Shown piece after piece: positions 2,525 through 53,554 of a DNA stretch of 64,000 bases; positions within the stretch are counted from its first letter, which is position 1, and every line of letters begins with the position of its first letter. Source of the DNA: Mycobacteriales bacterium (GTDB lineage: Bacteria; Actinomycetota; Actinomycetes; Mycobacteriales; SCTD01); assembly GCA_030447385.1 (NCBI GenBank), contig JAUJOY010000008.1, positions 1 through 64,000 on the forward strand. The letters run 5' to 3'. Below the pieces are notes generated by a model. It did not search any database. It saw only the letters and a program-made list of their open reading frames with translations, and was not told the origin of the DNA. Both the position numbers and the translations under genes were made by a program.

Positions 2525-3289
2525 TCAGTCGTAGTGACGGATCAGCCGCACGTTGAGCGCGACCATGACGACGCCGAGCACGGCGACCACGGCGAAACCA
2601 CGGGCGATCGGTGCCCACGCAAGATCCTGAAGGATCAGCGAGCGCAGCCCCTCCATGACATAGGTCACCGGGTTGAAGGTCGCGGCGATCTCCATCGGCC
2701 GGGTCAACAGCTCCCGTGGCACGAAGTTGGGCGTGAGGAACAGCAGCGGGAAGAAGACCAGGCCGCCGGAGTTGGTGGCCGCGGCGCTGCGCGTCTTCAG
2801 CGCGATGAGCTGCATGAAGCCGGCGAAGACCACGGCCCACAGCGCGGTGAGCACGAGCAGCAGCAGGAAGCCGACGGGCCCGCTCGCGATGCTGATCCCG
2901 AAGGGCAGGGACAGGACGACCAGGATCGCGGTGATGACGACGGACTTGGCCGCCTCGGCCAGCAGCCGACCGATCACCAGCGCGCTGCGGGAGATGGGTG
3001 CGGCCCGGAGCTTGTCGAAGTAGCCGCCCTCGATGTCCTCCACGAGGTAGAGCGCCGCGGTGCCGAAGGAGGCTGCCAGCAGCAGCGAGCTGGGCAGGGT
3101 GAAGGCGGCGTAGCTCTGCCCCTCCAGGAACGAGGTCGAGCTCGACGGGAAGATCTTGCCGGCCTGCCCGACGTTGACCACCAGGAAGAACAGCGGGATG
3201 AACAGCGTGGGCACCGCGGACTCAGGAGTCCGCAGCCCTTCCCGCAGCGCCCGTCCCCCGAGCACGCCCGCCTGCTGCACGGCGCTCAC
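2525..3289 (-). CDS. ABC-2 type transporter permease (DrrB-like)
   Basis: A 254-residue membrane protein with about six hydrophobic segments, typical of ABC-2 permeases such as DrrB of daunorubicin exporters. The cytosolic region includes EDIEGGYFDKLRAAPISRSALVIGRLLAE, the segment that contacts the ATPase in this family. It should form the membrane part of an efflux pump with the ATPase gene directly upstream. Its GTG start overlaps the ATPase stop by four bases (GTGA), so the two are translationally coupled. No dedicated substrate-binding or biosynthetic gene is nearby, so the exported compound (lipid, drug or pigment) is unknown. Confidence 0.9.
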   Translation of the reverse strand: MSAVQQAGVLGGRALREGLRTPESAVPTLFIPLFFLVVNVGQAGKIFPSSSTSFLEGQSYAAFTLPSSLLLAASFGTAALYLVEDIEGGYFDKLRAAPISRSALVIGRLLAEAAKSVVITAILVVLSLPFGISIASGPVGFLLLLVLTALWAVVFAGFMQLIALKTRSAAATNSGGLVFFPLLFLTPNFVPRELLTRPMEIAATFNPVTYVMEGLRSLILQDLAWAPIARGFAVVAVLGVVMVALNVRLIRHYD

Positions 3290-4170
3290 TCCGAGACCCC
3301 CTTCACGTCGCCGGCGACCCGCTCGCGAGTGCGTCCGGTCGCATCCAGGAAGACCTCCTCGAGCGTCGGCGGCGGCGCCGTGGCCCTGCGCCGCTGCAGG
3401 TCGCCCTTGAGCTGGCCGGGCGTCCCCTCGCGCACGATCCGGCCGCCGTCGATGATGGCGATCCGGTTGCAGAGCTGGTCGGCCTCCTCGAGGTACTGCG
3501 TCGTGAGGAAGACCGTGGTGCCGCGGGCGTTGATCCGCCGGACCTCGTCCCAGACGGTGAGCCGGCTCGCGGGGTCGAGCCCGGTCGTCGGCTCGTCGAG
3601 GAAGAGCACCTCCGGCTCGTGCACCAGCGCCGAGGCGAGGTCCAGCCGTCGCTTCATCCCGCCGGAGTAGCCCTTGATCCGGCGGTCCGCCGCGTCGACG
3701 AGGTCCACCAGCTCGAGCAGCTCCTGCGCCTTGGCCGACGCCTGCCCAGATGAGCTGCCGAACAGGCGGGCCTGCAGGACCAGCAGCTCGCGCCCGGTCT
3801 GCCGCGGGTCGAGCCCGGCCTCCTGCAGGGCCACCCCGATGCGCCGGCGGACCGCGTCGGGCTCGGCCATCACGTCGACCCCCGCCACCCGCGCCGTGCC
3901 GGAGGTGATCGACATCAGCGTGGTGAGCATGCGCACCGTCGTGGACTTGCCGGCGCCGTTGGGACCCAGGAAGCCGAACACCTCGCCGGCAGCCACGGCG
4001 AGGCCCACCCCCCGCACCGCGTCGACCGTCCCCGAGCGCCCGCGGTACTGCTTGACGAGACCCTGCGCCTCCACCGCCAGCTTCATGCCGGGAACGCTAG
4101 ATCGGTCCTGCGACATCTCCTGCTGCGGCACGACCGCCCTTTCCGTAGCCACTCCTGCGTCGAGCTCCAC
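3286..4170 (-). CDS. ABC transporter ATP-binding protein (DrrA-like)
   Basis: The nucleotide-binding partner of the downstream ABC-2 permease. It contains Walker A GPNGAGKST, the Q-loop region, the signature YSGGMKRRLDLA, Walker B VLFLDEPTTGLD and the H-loop region, followed by a short DrrA-type tail (LEEVFLDATGR). The GTG start at 4170 is chosen because AGGAGG sits 5 bases upstream. This adds a 28-residue leader before the usual family start (MKLAVEAQGLVKQY at 4086), which itself has no ribosome site. A further open stretch upstream to 4647 is antisense to the sigma factor gene and is not coding. Function as an export ATPase is secure, substrate unknown. Confidence 0.9.
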   Translation of the reverse strand: MELDAGVATERAVVPQQEMSQDRSSVPGMKLAVEAQGLVKQYRGRSGTVDAVRGVGLAVAAGEVFGFLGPNGAGKSTTVRMLTTLMSITSGTARVAGVDVMAEPDAVRRRIGVALQEAGLDPRQTGRELLVLQARLFGSSSGQASAKAQELLELVDLVDAADRRIKGYSGGMKRRLDLASALVHEPEVLFLDEPTTGLDPASRLTVWDEVRRINARGTTVFLTTQYLEEADQLCNRIAIIDGGRIVREGTPGQLKGDLQRRRATAPPPTLEEVFLDATGRTRERVAGDVKGVSE

Positions 4171-4352: not shown

Positions 4353-5387
4353 ATGAGCCAGATCGAGCAGGCAGACCCGGTGGACGAGGCCGCTGCGCAG
4401 GGTCCGCTGGATCGGAGCGACTTCCCGGAGCGAACCGATCCCTATCGGCGCGAGCTGTTCGCGCACTGCTACCGGATGCTCGGCTCGACCCACGACGCCG
4501 AGGACCTGGTCCAGGAGACCTACCTGCGGGCCTGGCGGTCGTACGACAGCTTCGAGGGTCGCTCCTCGCTTCGCACGTGGCTGTACCGGATCGCCACCAA
4601 CGTCTGCCTGACTGCCTTGGACGGGCGGGACAAGCGGCCGCTGCCAACGGGCCTGGGCCAGCCCAGCTCTGATCCGGAGGGAGCTCTCGTCTCCTCGCCC
4701 GAGGTGCCGTGGCTGGAGCCGGTGCCCGACGCGATGACCGGCACCGAGGCCACGGACCCCGCCACAGTGGTTGCCTCCCGGGCCAGCATCCGCCTGGCGT
4801 TCATCGCGGCGCTCCAGCACCTGCCACCCCGGCAGCGGGCCGTCCTGATCCTGCGCGACGTGCTGGCGTTCCGCGCGGCGGAGGTGGCCGACGCCGTGGG
4901 CATCAGCACGGTCGCGGTGAACAGCACGCTGCAGCGCGCCCGCGCGCAGCTGGCGCTGGTCTCCCCGGACGAGGACACCATCACCGAGCCCTCGGAGCCG
5001 GAGCAGAAGGAGCTGCTGGAGCGTTACGCGCAGGCGTTCTGGGACAAGGACGTCAGCACGCTCATGAAGCTGTTCACCGAGGACGTGGTCTGGGAGATGC
5101 CGCCGTTCACCGGCTGGTACCAGGGCGCGGAGACCGTCAGCCGGCTCATCGACACCAACTGCCCCGGCGGCGCGCGTGACATGCGCATGGTCCGGACCAG
5201 CGCCAACGGGCAGCCGGCCTTCGGGCTCTACATGCGTGCCGACGATGGTCGCTTCTGGCCGTTCCAGCTGCAGGTGCTGACCGTCACGGACCGGGTGAGC
5301 CACGTGGCCGCGTTCTTCGACGTCAGCCTGTTCCGGCTGTTCGGGCTTGCGGACAGCGTTGCGGCGCCGGACGAGGACACCGGCTGA
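4353..5387 (+). CDS. RNA polymerase sigma-70 factor, SigX5/ECF-like with C-terminal SnoaL-type domain
   Basis: A 344-residue alternative sigma factor. Region 2 covers roughly residues 28-95, including LFAHCYRMLGSTHDAEDLVQETYLRAWR and the WLYRIATNVCLTALD motif. Region 4 at about 150-205 carries LPPRQRAVLILRDVLAF and the HTH AAEVADAVGISTVAVNSTLQRAR. Residues from about 215 onward form an NTF2/SnoaL-like domain, the architecture of stand-alone sigma factors that use a fused C-terminal domain instead of an anti-sigma factor. The ATG has GAGAGG about 8 bases upstream. The gene downstream begins 5 bases after its stop and is probably in the same operon. Targets are unknown. Confidence 0.9.
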   Translation: MSQIEQADPVDEAAAQGPLDRSDFPERTDPYRRELFAHCYRMLGSTHDAEDLVQETYLRAWRSYDSFEGRSSLRTWLYRIATNVCLTALDGRDKRPLPTGLGQPSSDPEGALVSSPEVPWLEPVPDAMTGTEATDPATVVASRASIRLAFIAALQHLPPRQRAVLILRDVLAFRAAEVADAVGISTVAVNSTLQRARAQLALVSPDEDTITEPSEPEQKELLERYAQAFWDKDVSTLMKLFTEDVVWEMPPFTGWYQGAETVSRLIDTNCPGGARDMRMVRTSANGQPAFGLYMRADDGRFWPFQLQVLTVTDRVSHVAAFFDVSLFRLFGLADSVAAPDEDTG

Positions 5388-42349: not shown

Positions 42350-42381
42350 GGCACTGAGAACAGGCCGGTGTCCTCGGTGCC
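42350..42381 (-). terminator. Terminator-like hairpin after lysS, related to the 51.8-53.1 kb palindrome family
   Basis: GGCACTGAGAACA (42350-42362) pairs at 11 of 13 positions with 42369-42381 around a 6-base loop. It lies in the gap between lysS and DUF2252. Its arms are the same words as in the palindromic repeats near 52 kb (GGCACCGAGAAC / GTTCTCGGTGCC), but in reversed order. Confidence 0.6.
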
Positions 42382-50636: not shown

Positions 50637-51767
50637 GTGGCGCCGCGGGAACGGCAGGCCGGTGAACTGGTCGTCGGCATCGGCGCGGCGGCGCATGCGG
50701 CCAGCGACGCGGTGCTCGTCCTCGGGCCGCACCACCCCTCCAGCCACGGCGTCCTGCAGGTCGCGCTGACCCTGGACGGGGACCGCATCGCGACGGCCGA
50801 GCCGATCGTGGGCTTCGTGCACCGGGGCGCGGAGAAGTTGTTCGAGGCCCGCGACTACCGCCAGCTGGTGATGCTCGCCAACCGGCACGACTGGCTGTCG
50901 GCGTTCAGCAACGAGCTCGGGATCGTCCTGGCGCTCGAGCGGATGCTGGGGATGCAGGTGCCGGACCGGGCGGTCTGGCTGCGCACGCTGCTGGCGGAGA
51001 TCAACCGGGTGCTCAACCACCTGCTGTTCCTCGGGACGGTGGATCCGGCTGTGCAGCTGGGCTTCTCGGAGCGGGAGGCGCTGCAGGGGGTCATGGAGGA
51101 GGCGACCGGCGGACGGCTGCACTACATGTACAACCGCGTGGGCGGTCTGAAGGAGGACGTCCCCGTGGGGTGGGCCGCGCGGGCGCAGGCGGCGCTGGCC
51201 GGCGTACGCCCGGTGGTTGCGCAGCTGGAGGCCTTGTTCGCCGAGGACCAGATGCGGGCGCGGACCGTCGGGATCGGGGTGCTGTCGGAGTCCGACGCGC
51301 TGTCCTACGGGGTGTCCGGACCGGTTGCCCGCGCGTCCGGCGTCGACATGGACCTGCGACGCGACGAGCCCTACCTGGCGTACGGCTCGCTGGACGTGCC
51401 GGTGGTCACCCGCGCTGCCGGGGATGCCGCGGCACGGTTCGCGTGCCTGCTCGAGCAGACGCGGGTCTGCGTCGACCTGGCGCAGGCGTGCCTGGCGCGG
51501 CTGCCACCGGGCCGGGTCAACCTGCGCCTGCCGAAGACGATCAAGGCGCCCGAGGGGTCGACCTACGCGTGGACGGAGAACCCGCTGGGCGTGCAGGGCT
51601 ACTACCTGGTCTCCCGGGGGGACCGGGTGCCCTGGCGGCTGGCGATGCGCACCGCGTCGTTCAACAACGTCTCCGCGCTGTCGGCGGTGCTGCCCGGGGT
51701 GGCCGTGGCCGACCTGGTGATGGTGCTGTGCTCGTTCTTCTTCGTGATCGGGGACATCGACAAGTAG
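50637..51767 (+). CDS. NADH-quinone oxidoreductase subunit D-like protein (stand-alone NuoD paralogue)
   Basis: A 376-residue homologue of the 49-kDa/NuoD subunit that forms the quinone site of complex I. It keeps [20 protein letters not shown] (the GPxHP loop), [39 protein letters not shown] and [14 protein letters not shown]-type C-terminal residues, ending GDIDK. No other nuo gene is nearby, so it acts with a nuo operon elsewhere or in a separate electron-transfer module. It is co-transcribed with the MidA-like methyltransferase. GTG 50637; the NuoD-specific substitutions at the quinone site were not scored. Confidence 0.9.
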
Positions 51768-51830: not shown

Positions 51831-51882
51831 GGTTCTTGGTGCCCACTGCACGCGTCGGGCGGCACCCGTGGCACCGAGAACC
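51831..51882. repeat. Palindromic repeat unit 1
   Basis: Arms GGTTCTTGGTGCC (51831-51843) and GGCACCGAGAACC (51870-51882), 12 of 13 pairs matching, with a 26-base spacer. It lies in the 345-base gap between the NuoD-like gene and the DUF559 gene. Confidence 0.75.
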
Positions 51883-51915
51883 GCCGGCCGGGCACGGGTG
51901 GCCCTTCTGCATCAC

Positions 51916-51988
51916 CCTGTCCCGCTCCACCGTCTACCGTTCTCGGTGCCGTCCGCAGCACGCCGCGGGCGCTCTTGGCGCCGAGAAC
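51916..51988. repeat. Palindromic repeat unit 2
   Basis: Arms GTTCTCGGTGCC (51939-51950) and 51977-51988, 11 of 12 pairs matching, spacer 26. The 18-base leader at 51916-51933 and part of the spacer (GCAGCACGCCG, GGCGCTCTTGG) are shared with unit 3, so units 2 and 3 are about 74-base direct repeats, 105 bases apart. Confidence 0.8.
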
Positions 51989-52020
51989 GCGGGTCACCGC
52001 TCAGCAGGCCTCCTGTGTCA

Positions 52021-52097
52021 CCTGTCCCGCTCCACCGTCGGCTGTTCTCGGTGCCGGTCTGCAGCACGCCGTAGGCGCTCTTGGCACCGAGAACAGC
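52021..52097. repeat. Palindromic repeat unit 3
   Basis: Perfect 15-bp arms at 52041-52055 and 52083-52097 with a 27-base spacer, and the same 18-base leader as unit 2 at 52021-52038. It ends 16 bases before the DUF559 gene stop. Confidence 0.85.
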
Positions 52098-52112
52098 AAC
52101 CCCGCGGCTTGC

Positions 52113-53012
52113 TCAGCCGGTGGAGCGTTGCGCGGCCTGGCGGCGCTGAAGCAGGAACTGCGCCAGCTCATCGGCCAGCACTGCCAGATCGTCAGCGACC
52201 TCGGCTGCGTCGATGCGCAGGGTGACGATCTCGTGCTCCGCGTGCATCCAGCGGTCCCGCCGTCGGTCCGCCCGGAAGCGCTGACGCTCGAGGTGGGACA
52301 GGAAGCCGTCGACCTCGGGAACCGTGCTCGCCGCCTCATCGAGCACGTCCGCGTAGGCGGAGCACCCGGCCGCGTTGACGAAGCGGACCTCGGTGCGCAG
52401 GCCGGTCACCCCCCTCGCCGCGAGCTGCGCACACAGGATGCGCACCGCGCTGTCCAGGCTCACCCCCAGCAGCTCGTCCAGCACGCTGCGGGTGGCGGCA
52501 GACCCGCTCACGCCCCGGCGGCACCGCGCCCGCACCCGCGGGATGGTCGTACGGCGCTCCCGCAGCACCCTCTCGAACAGGGCAAGGCGCGCTTCAGCCT
52601 CGAGCAGAGCGGCCGCCTGGACGAGGGCGACCTCCAGCGCGACGACGGACGTCCCGTCGACGACGCGGCGACCCTCCAGCAGGTGAGGCGCGATTCGCCT
52701 GACCTGTGTCGGCGGGTGTGCCCGCAAGCGCGTCCCGTGGCGGACACCGACGCGAACGACCACCGGTTCAGCCGTCAGGCCGTACTTCCAGAGGGCGGTC
52801 ACGTCCAGCAGCGCGTACGGGCCACGCGCGCTCATGCGGACGGCCGCCACCTGCTCGGGAGCCTGCACCGGTTGTGTCGCGGCGATCCAGACCCGTGGCT
52901 GCACCGGCACGAGCCCCGCCCGCCGGGCGAAGCGGGCCGGGTGGCCGCCCAGCTCAGCGCTGCTCAGCAGCCCGTCATGCAGGCGCGCCTGAGCCGCGAG
53001 GTCCCTGTCCAT
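52113..53012 (-). CDS. DUF559/AbiEi-type protein (Vsr-like nuclease-fold C-terminus)
   Basis: A 299-residue protein of a common actinobacterial type: an N-terminal winged-helix-like region (LSSAELGGHPARFARRAGLV, then VQPRVWIAATQPVQAPEQVA), a middle part RLRAHPPTQVRRIAPHLLEG with TSVVALEVALVQAA, and a C-terminal DUF559/Vsr-like segment (SAYADVLDEAASTVPEVDGF, HLERQRFRADRRRDRWMHAE and IVTLRIDAAEV). In relatives the last strand reads VVEVDG with an acidic metal ligand; here it is TVPEVDG. Such proteins are annotated as type IV toxin-antitoxin AbiEi-like or endonuclease-like; function is unproven. It is bracketed by palindromic repeats. Confidence 0.72.
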   Translation of the reverse strand: MDRDLAAQARLHDGLLSSAELGGHPARFARRAGLVPVQPRVWIAATQPVQAPEQVAAVRMSARGPYALLDVTALWKYGLTAEPVVVRVGVRHGTRLRAHPPTQVRRIAPHLLEGRRVVDGTSVVALEVALVQAAALLEAEARLALFERVLRERRTTIPRVRARCRRGVSGSAATRSVLDELLGVSLDSAVRILCAQLAARGVTGLRTEVRFVNAAGCSAYADVLDEAASTVPEVDGFLSHLERQRFRADRRRDRWMHAEHEIVTLRIDAAEVADDLAVLADELAQFLLQRRQAAQRSTG

Positions 53013-53090
53013 GTGGCAACCCTCATCGCCCAGGAGACGAGCGCGAGGGCTCGAGGCCGAAGCTGTGGACGAGCACGCCGGCCTTGTCCT

Positions 53091-53142
53091 GATCTCGGTG
53101 CCGCCAGCGCGCTCCCTGCGGGCAGGCCTGGCACCGAGAACC
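53091..53142. repeat. Palindromic repeat unit 4
   Basis: GATCTCGGTGCC (53091-53102) and GGCACCGAGAACC (53130-53142) form the same arm pair as units 1-3, 10 of 12 pairs matching, spacer 27. It is the only copy on the upstream side of the DUF559 gene. Confidence 0.7.
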
Positions 53143-53270
53143 AGCGGGGGTGGGGCAGACCCGGGCGGATCCGGCGAGCCGGGGCGAACCAGCGGGGTGG
53201 GGCAGACCCGGGCGGATCCGGCGAGCCGGGGGGACCAGTGGGGCGGGGCGCATCCGGACCCGGGCGCAAC
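53141..53270. repeat. 46-48-base tandem direct repeats (about 2.7 copies)
   Basis: Copy 1 begins CCAGCGG at 53141 and copy 2 at 53189; their shared core TGGGGCAGACCCGGGCGGAT continues as CCGGCGAGCCGGGG. A third, degenerate partial copy begins at 53235. The array starts inside the right arm of palindromic unit 4 and fills the gap before the next gene. No open frame is conserved across it. Confidence 0.8.
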
Positions 53271-53284
53271 CGGCCCGCGTGGCA

Positions 53285-53554
53285 TCAGCTGCGCAGGTAG
53301 TCCAGGAAGCGCGCCCGCAGGAGCGGCTCGTCCTCGCCGAGCGGCTCCTTGCCCAAGAGCTCGCGGACCACGTGCACGGCCTCGGAGATCGAGCCGGTGA
53401 TCCCGCCGGAGGAGCCGTCCTCGGCGGCGATCGCCTGCGCACCGCGCATGTGCTTGACGAGGTCCCAGAAGAAGCCGCGGTCCTTGGCTGCCTCCGCCTT
53501 CTCGAACGCCAGGCGCCGCAGGTCGTCTGTGGACAGCGCGTCGAGGTCGGTCAC
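53285..53554 (-). CDS. Small conserved hypothetical protein
   Basis: An 89-residue acidic protein: ALSTDDLRRLAFEKAEAAKD, RGFFWDLVKHMRGAQAIAAE, DGSSGGITGSISEAVHVVRE, then a C-terminal LLRARFLDYLRS. It looks like a folded two- to three-helix protein, typical of short actinobacterial genes found beside the folate cluster; no family function is known. ATG/GTG 53554 is the only start. It lies 9 bases downstream of the DUF3180 gene, likely the end of that operon. Confidence 0.75.
   Translation of the reverse strand: MTDLDALSTDDLRRLAFEKAEAAKDRGFFWDLVKHMRGAQAIAAEDGSSGGITGSISEAVHVVRELLGKEPLGEDEPLLRARFLDYLRS

Follow-up and report, generated by a model that had tools for sequence, protein, structure and literature searches.

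Palindromic repeats bracket AbiEi-like/DUF559 nuclease genes in Actinobacteria: a probable protein-repeat partnership resembling REP/RAYT units

Introduction

The closest described systems to the one reported here are the REP sequences and their RAYT tyrosine transposases, in which two inverted REPs always flank the RAYT gene and the REPs, which are also dispersed, coevolve with it and stay palindromic (PMC2817692). RAYTs are the sole enzyme class tied to REP repeats in the literature searched, and REP families with no dedicated transposase, as reported for the CGTC-tagged REPs, are an acknowledged gap (PMC3733652).

The locus described here lies in a window of 64,000 nucleotides, this being the whole stretch of DNA analysed (positions 1 to 64,000 of contig JAUJOY010000008.1), from a Mycobacteriales bacterium (GCA_030447385.1, genome G000 in what follows). 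An earlier note made from these letters had proposed that a Vsr/DUF559-type nuclease encoded there may be the partner of a palindromic repeat family, in the way that a RAYT serves REPs. We describe the repeats and the gene, their occurrence in related genomes, and a wider family of two-domain proteins with similarly bracketed genes.

Results

The repeats and the protein in the window

The nuclease-like gene is surrounded by four palindromes of ~51 bp with 12-nt arms (Table 1). Their positions agree with those in the earlier note and, as the gene is read from the minus strand, copies 1 to 3 lie downstream of it and copy 4 upstream. The constant distance of 26-27 between the arms was borne out by measurement (26, 26, 27, and 27), and the two copies noted as longer direct repeats are copies 2 and 3, which both lie within one ~105-bp tandem duplication. 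The arms are GTTCTCGGTGCC/GGCACCGAGAAC with 0-1 mismatch per arm, five of the eight being exact and the others having single mismatches (arms at 51832, 51977, and 53091), and arms with two mismatches or fewer number 38 in the window compared to 11 ± 3 in shuffles. The hairpins have energies of −34 to −40 kcal/mol, and each of the four copies folds 2.8 to 6.1 standard deviations more stably than shuffled sequence. The GTAG/GTGG head is absent, the palindromes starting with GTTC, GATC, and the like, and a search for known RNA families with the palindrome gave no match above noise. Two other elements were seen in the window. At 42350-42381, two outward-facing near-copies of the arm, GGCACTGAGAAC...GTCCTCGGTGCC, are 8 bp apart and followed by a TGCCCG interior motif, an arrangement that may represent a copy of the repeat that is broken or only half present. 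The interval from the upstream palindrome to the small open reading frame contains, at 53147-53234, two instances of a 41-nt unit that are 98% identical and 47 bp apart.

Table 1. Features of the bracketed locus, with positions in the window.
Feature	Position	Strand	Location	Arm positions	Arms	Spacer (nt)	Remarks
nuoD-like gene	50637..51767	+	left border of variable slot
Palindrome copy 1	51832..51881	+	downstream of gene	51832-51843/51870-51881	GTTCTTGGTGCC / GGCACCGAGAAC	26
Palindrome copy 2	51939..51988	-	downstream of gene	51939-51950/51977-51988		26	first half of ~105-bp tandem duplication
Palindrome copy 3	52044..52094	-	~19 bp from stop codon of gene	52044-52055/52083-52094		27	second half of duplication
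Nuclease-like gene	52113..53012	-					299 aa; AbiEi-like N-terminal half and DUF559/Vsr-like (PD-(D/E)XK) domain
Palindrome copy 4	53091..53141	-	upstream of gene	53091-53102/53130-53141	GATCTCGGTGCC / GGCACCGAGAAC	27
Small conserved ORF	53285..53554	-	right border of variable slot				89 aa

The window protein had been described as DUF559/AbiEi-like, a description that stands on its relatives and not on a profile match of its own. It has no match at E ≤ 1 in Pfam or NCBIfam, and hence the DUF559-type label rests on its homologs, that of G011 scoring 25.3 bits against DUF559 (PF04480), where the cut-off is 20.6. Residues D222, E233-x-D235-G, and D249-R-x-R-D-R-W of the window protein are common to six homologs, and those of the catalytic D..ExD motif (D222, E233, and D235) are invariant in them. 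The N-terminal half aligns with a paralog in the same genome, the AbiEi_4 plus DUF559 protein L012, which itself matches the AbiEi model of PADLOC at 7e-21 and also Pfam AbiEi_4. A profile of six sequences had no match among solved structures, and an AlphaFold model made with two sequences was too poor for use (mean pLDDT 43). An AbiEii nucleotidyltransferase toxin is not adjacent, the neighbours in the window being the nuoD-like gene and the 89-aa conserved open reading frame.

Dispersal of the repeat in its own genome

The exact pattern of 9-nt arms occurs ten times in the 3.41 Mb of G000 and the reversed-pattern control not once, while a covariance model built from 12 copies places the repeat at 23 distinct sites (E ≤ 1e-4). 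Aligned copies are all 50-51 bp long and agree in both arms and in an asymmetric TGCCCG-like interior motif, the rest of the spacer being variable, and it is the arm sequence, beyond pairing alone, that is conserved within the genome. RNAalifold found no covariation among the G000 copies because their arms are nearly identical. All but one of 21 copies are outside gene calls and, with these rough calls, 6 of the 21 are between convergent genes, 8 between tandem genes, and 1 between divergent genes, with 5 undetermined; the copies adjoin ordinary genes such as those for cytochrome oxidase, hemL, and secA. Clustering of copies within 1 kb of DUF559 genes, which the earlier note had put forward as a check, was not found, as most copies are dispersed and near no DUF559 gene. 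Literal DUF559 clustering was rejected on the position of L012 (G000:C1:307820), the sole Pfam DUF559 match of the genome, which is unbracketed and has no copy within 20 kb. A RAYT partner for the repeat was also rejected, since a search of 13 genomes for Y1_Tnp (PF01797) found none, with positive controls.

The stability of the hairpins and the location of the copies, which are mostly intergenic and often near 3′ ends, are what would be expected if the palindromes were terminators or mRNA-stabilizing hairpins that merely happen to be at gene ends. We regard this as very improbable, given that none of the window copies has a T-run 3′ of its arms, the criterion for an intrinsic terminator, that the arm sequence itself is conserved, and that the model does not explain why, as described below, a single gene family has matching arms to its left and right and paralogs in the same genome have differing ones.

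Close homologs and their arms

Among relatives, the repeat was found in the congeners G002 (38 places) and G003 (9 places) but in none of ten others tested, and some of its positions are shared between G000 and G003 (L027/L052 and L030/L054) while others are not. Similarity between dispersed copies in G002 (L037, L058, L060, and L053) spans 150-430 bp and includes two palindromes, from which it would seem that composite units have spread in that genome. Homologs of the window gene are present in G002 (57% identity) and in G021 from another genus (46%). When 399 genomes of the order were searched with a profile, using our own gene calls as for the other relatives' genomes, three more close homologs (G020, G011, and G018) and a distant one (G163) were found. 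Protein searches of named genomes matched only a Frankiales MAG contig, the gene content of which is that of the G021 contig.

All six members of this close family (39-61% pairwise identity), of which G000/G002 and G011/G018 are orthologous pairs rather than independent cases, are bracketed by palindromes of ~45-53 bp that have matching arms on both sides and a sequence specific to the lineage. The arms are GTTCTCGGTGCC in G000 and in G002, where the homolog is bracketed by the same palindromes as the window gene, CTTTG/CTCTGTGGGT...ACCCACAGAG in G021, TGATCAAGGTGC in G020, GATCACCGCCG in G011, and GATCACTGCCG in G018, and the distant homolog in G163 is bracketed on both sides by TGCACANTNTC...GACAATGTGCA. 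The earlier note would have taken related strains with the gene but without the arms as a refutation. Read literally, G021 is such a case, as it has the gene without the arms seen in G000 and has instead four palindromes with different arms, two on each side. The G021 repeat is at 21 places in that genome, with many pairs 76 bp apart, and is essentially missing from 23 other genomes. The repeats of G011 and G018 each have single further copies in the sampled 6-10% of each genome; copy numbers for these two and for G020, G163, and G026 come from samples, while those for G000, G002, G003, and G021 do not.

The changes in the arms between lineages are paired. With nine aligned arm pairs from G000, G020, G011, and G018 (G021 was excluded as its register is uncertain), double changes were counted in 7 of 11 base pairs, pairing cells reached 97% compared to 74% in shuffles, and the covariation score was 0.568 compared to 0.183 (0 of 500 shuffles), the signal being lost when the partner arm was slid. 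It is visible only between genomes and not among the G000 copies and, as the set consists of nine short and related arm sequences, it supports rather than proves that the two arms have changed together.

In G000, G002, and G021, the gene with its palindromes occupies the slot between nuoD and the small open reading frame. The two border genes are separated by 30 bp in G003, where the slot contains neither the gene nor a palindrome, and a homolog was not found at the slot in the other relatives in which it was read. Of the traits of a MITE, neither a target-site duplication nor a clean edge of insertion could be established, the transposase search having covered the Y1 type. The G020 unit also adjoins nuoD, and those of G011 and G018 adjoin GAPDH. 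The 9 repeat places in G003 are accompanied by no detected homolog of the gene, and this genome either has the repeat without its partner or has the gene in a gap of an assembly that is 87% complete (L105).

The recurrent use of the nuoD slot (four genomes) and the GAPDH slot (two), together with the G003 repeat, could also indicate that a mobile gene inserts at or near pre-existing palindromes of another origin, such that bracketing merely records where it landed, and Vsr-like EDxHD enzymes are one known family of homing endonucleases (PMC6083498). However, the arms follow the lineage of the gene and not the genome, as shown by G163, in which five different palindromes accompany at least five such genes, and the nuoD slot of G003 has no palindrome to land on. 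We therefore consider landing at older palindromes to be quite unlikely.

Bracketing in a wider two-domain family

A family profile was made from 11 proteins (the six close homologs, the G163 protein, two from Tsukamurella, L012, and L153), and a gene counted as bracketed if inverted repeats (gap 6-45, stem score ≥ 8) lay no more than 300 bp away on each side and their arms matched over 9 nt, one mismatch allowed. In all of the fetched sequence, 16 of 22 genes encoding an AbiEi-like winged helix with a DUF559/PD-(D/E)XK domain are bracketed on both sides by matched arms, the flanks of all 11 profile-building proteins having been seen before the test. The controls gave 0 of 3 for AbiEi antitoxins with a toxin partner, 0 of 2 for solo DUF559 genes, and 0.2-0.6% for random 900-bp placements (17 of 3000 and 9 of 1500 with the final settings; with stricter gaps 6 of 2500, including two true cases, the G002 locus and L153). 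By way of the L153 match among the controls, another AbiEi-like plus nuclease gene was found blindly. Among genes found with the profile and with flanks not previously looked at, L199, L215, L220, L228, L231, and L250 are bracketed and L153b, L167, and L240 are not, while from a protein search an Arthrobacter gene (L202) passes and a Nonomuraea gene (L203) fails. One bracketed gene is in G026, which was fetched after the test had been fixed. Some of the 6 failures among the 22 have a palindrome on one side, and strong one-sided palindromes were observed at L167:4846-4901 and L240:~4430-4490. The ExD motif is altered in the L153 and L231 proteins.

In Tsukamurella tyrosinosolvens, the gene for WP_068740572.1 is flanked by 41-bp palindromes, TGCGGTGGAT-21-ATCCACCGCA, in inverted orientation, and up to nine occurrences of this palindrome were counted over three records of the strain. 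Two of the further copies examined are intergenic, one in a 58-bp gap between convergent genes and another between divergent genes. A second AbiEi-like gene (WP_074850915.1, NZ_LR134465.1) lies between runs of GTGGGGGA-TCGGCG direct repeats that are not palindromes (L204:1232-1480 and 2385-2650). The records NZ_LR134451.1, NZ_LR134454.1, and NZ_LR134464.1 of strain NCTC13231 are labelled "plasmid" and contain housekeeping genes; they look like pieces of chromosome.

Of the palindromes in G163, the one with GCGAATGTATA arms has 19 copies in the 600 kb sampled (none for the reversed control), while those of L215 and L228 were seen only at the gene in the sampled sequence. Tandem palindromic arrays with a period of ~80-101 bp are on both sides of the L220 nuclease gene (G163:C12, L220:1122-1584 and 2637-3319), and the same type of repeat forms a further array at a second site (L218:8288-8619). 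The flanking pairs are inverted in Tsukamurella, G011, G018, G021, and probably G002 and direct in G020, L228, L220, and others, and so there is no uniform transposon-end geometry.

The main rival to a nuclease-repeat partnership is that the palindromes are operators at which the AbiEi-like winged helix represses its own gene, with the dispersed copies as its regulon and the nuclease half incidental or inactive. The promoters of AbiEi antitoxins do contain inverted repeats to which the antitoxin itself binds (PMC7319586), every bracketed case has an upstream palindrome (79 bp before the start codon in G000), and the arms co-vary with the protein. Such a role accounts for the upstream copies but not for those immediately 3′ of the gene, a position in which an operator would serve no evident purpose, nor for those between convergent genes, which in G000 outnumber those between divergent genes (6 versus 1, n = 21, rough gene calls) and in Tsukamurella include the one filling the 58-bp gap, albeit with another between divergent genes. 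In addition, none of the three true AbiEi antitoxins paired with a toxin was bracketed, and the motif of the nuclease has been conserved. On these grounds the operator reading is unlikely.

Discussion

As an association, the proposal of the earlier note that a Vsr/DUF559-type nuclease partners a palindrome family is strongly supported by the bracketing of all close homologs and most of the wider family and by the covarying arms. The gene and its bracketing palindromes probably form a dedicated, REPtron-like partnership of protein and repeat, the enzyme of which is unrelated to RAYT. The proposed unit consists of a solitary protein with an AbiEi-like winged helix and a DUF559/Vsr-like PD-(D/E)XK domain, together with its cognate palindromic target repeat. 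The protein would recognize the arms of its own palindrome, whether these are in a duplex or in a hairpin that is extruded or single-stranded, and would nick or cut there. Repair would then copy the palindrome into other intergenic sites and keep copies on both sides of the gene, although this copying step is put forward with some reserve. Repeat and protein would shift specificity together, giving each lineage, and each paralog within a genome, arms of its own.

A broader and equally tentative possibility is that solitary actinobacterial proteins of this type are a second, independently evolved enzyme class that both makes and maintains REP-like repeats, each cutting and spreading its own palindrome, and that many dispersed actinobacterial palindromes are their footprints. 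If true, a nuclease of unrelated fold would have the same genomic signature as the RAYTs and gene-plus-palindrome units would have evolved more than once, a function could be given to a common gene family annotated as "DUF559" or "AbiEi-like," and dispersed palindromes in Actinobacteria would be explained. The predicted target of each gene can be read from its flanks, and specificity can be controlled for with paralogs from the same genome. A literature search, with most subscription journals outside its coverage, found no DUF559 or AbiEi-like nucleases tied to palindromic repeats, which suggests that this partnership is unrecorded.

The proteins resemble the DUF559 (PF04480)/MTES_1575 nucleases and Vsr in their C-terminal domain and its D..ExDG motif, with the G011 homolog over the Pfam cut-off. 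Vsr, however, is a stand-alone mismatch endonuclease, while here the nuclease domain shares a polypeptide with an AbiEi-like half and is associated with flanking repeats. The N-terminal half resembles, through its alignment with L012, the AbiEi of AbiE type IV toxin-antitoxin systems (AbiEi/AbiEii), which binds inverted repeats, but there is no adjacent AbiEii toxin gene, the nuclease domain replaces the antitoxin C-terminal domain, and the palindromes are on both sides of the gene and not at the promoter alone. CGTC-tagged REPs are likewise abundant dispersed palindromes without a Y1 partner and differ in that a candidate partner enzyme is present here.

The likeness is greatest in form to the REP/RAYT systems, with their REPtrons, REPINs, and BIMEs (PMC2817692; PMC3733652). 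In both, a nuclease gene is flanked by a short palindrome that is also dispersed between genes, paired changes preserve palindromicity, the repeat changes along with its gene, there are several gene-repeat pairs per genome, and copies occur as doublets and arrays. The units described here differ in their actinobacterial hosts and usually in having fewer copies. Their enzyme, a PD-(D/E)XK/DUF559 nuclease with a winged-helix half, replaces the Y1/HUH tyrosine transposase, the palindromes lack the GTAG head and are for the most part longer (26-68 bp in all, with long spacers), and the flanking copies can be direct as well as inverted. Judged by this comparison, they share the anatomy of REPtrons but are not members of that group.
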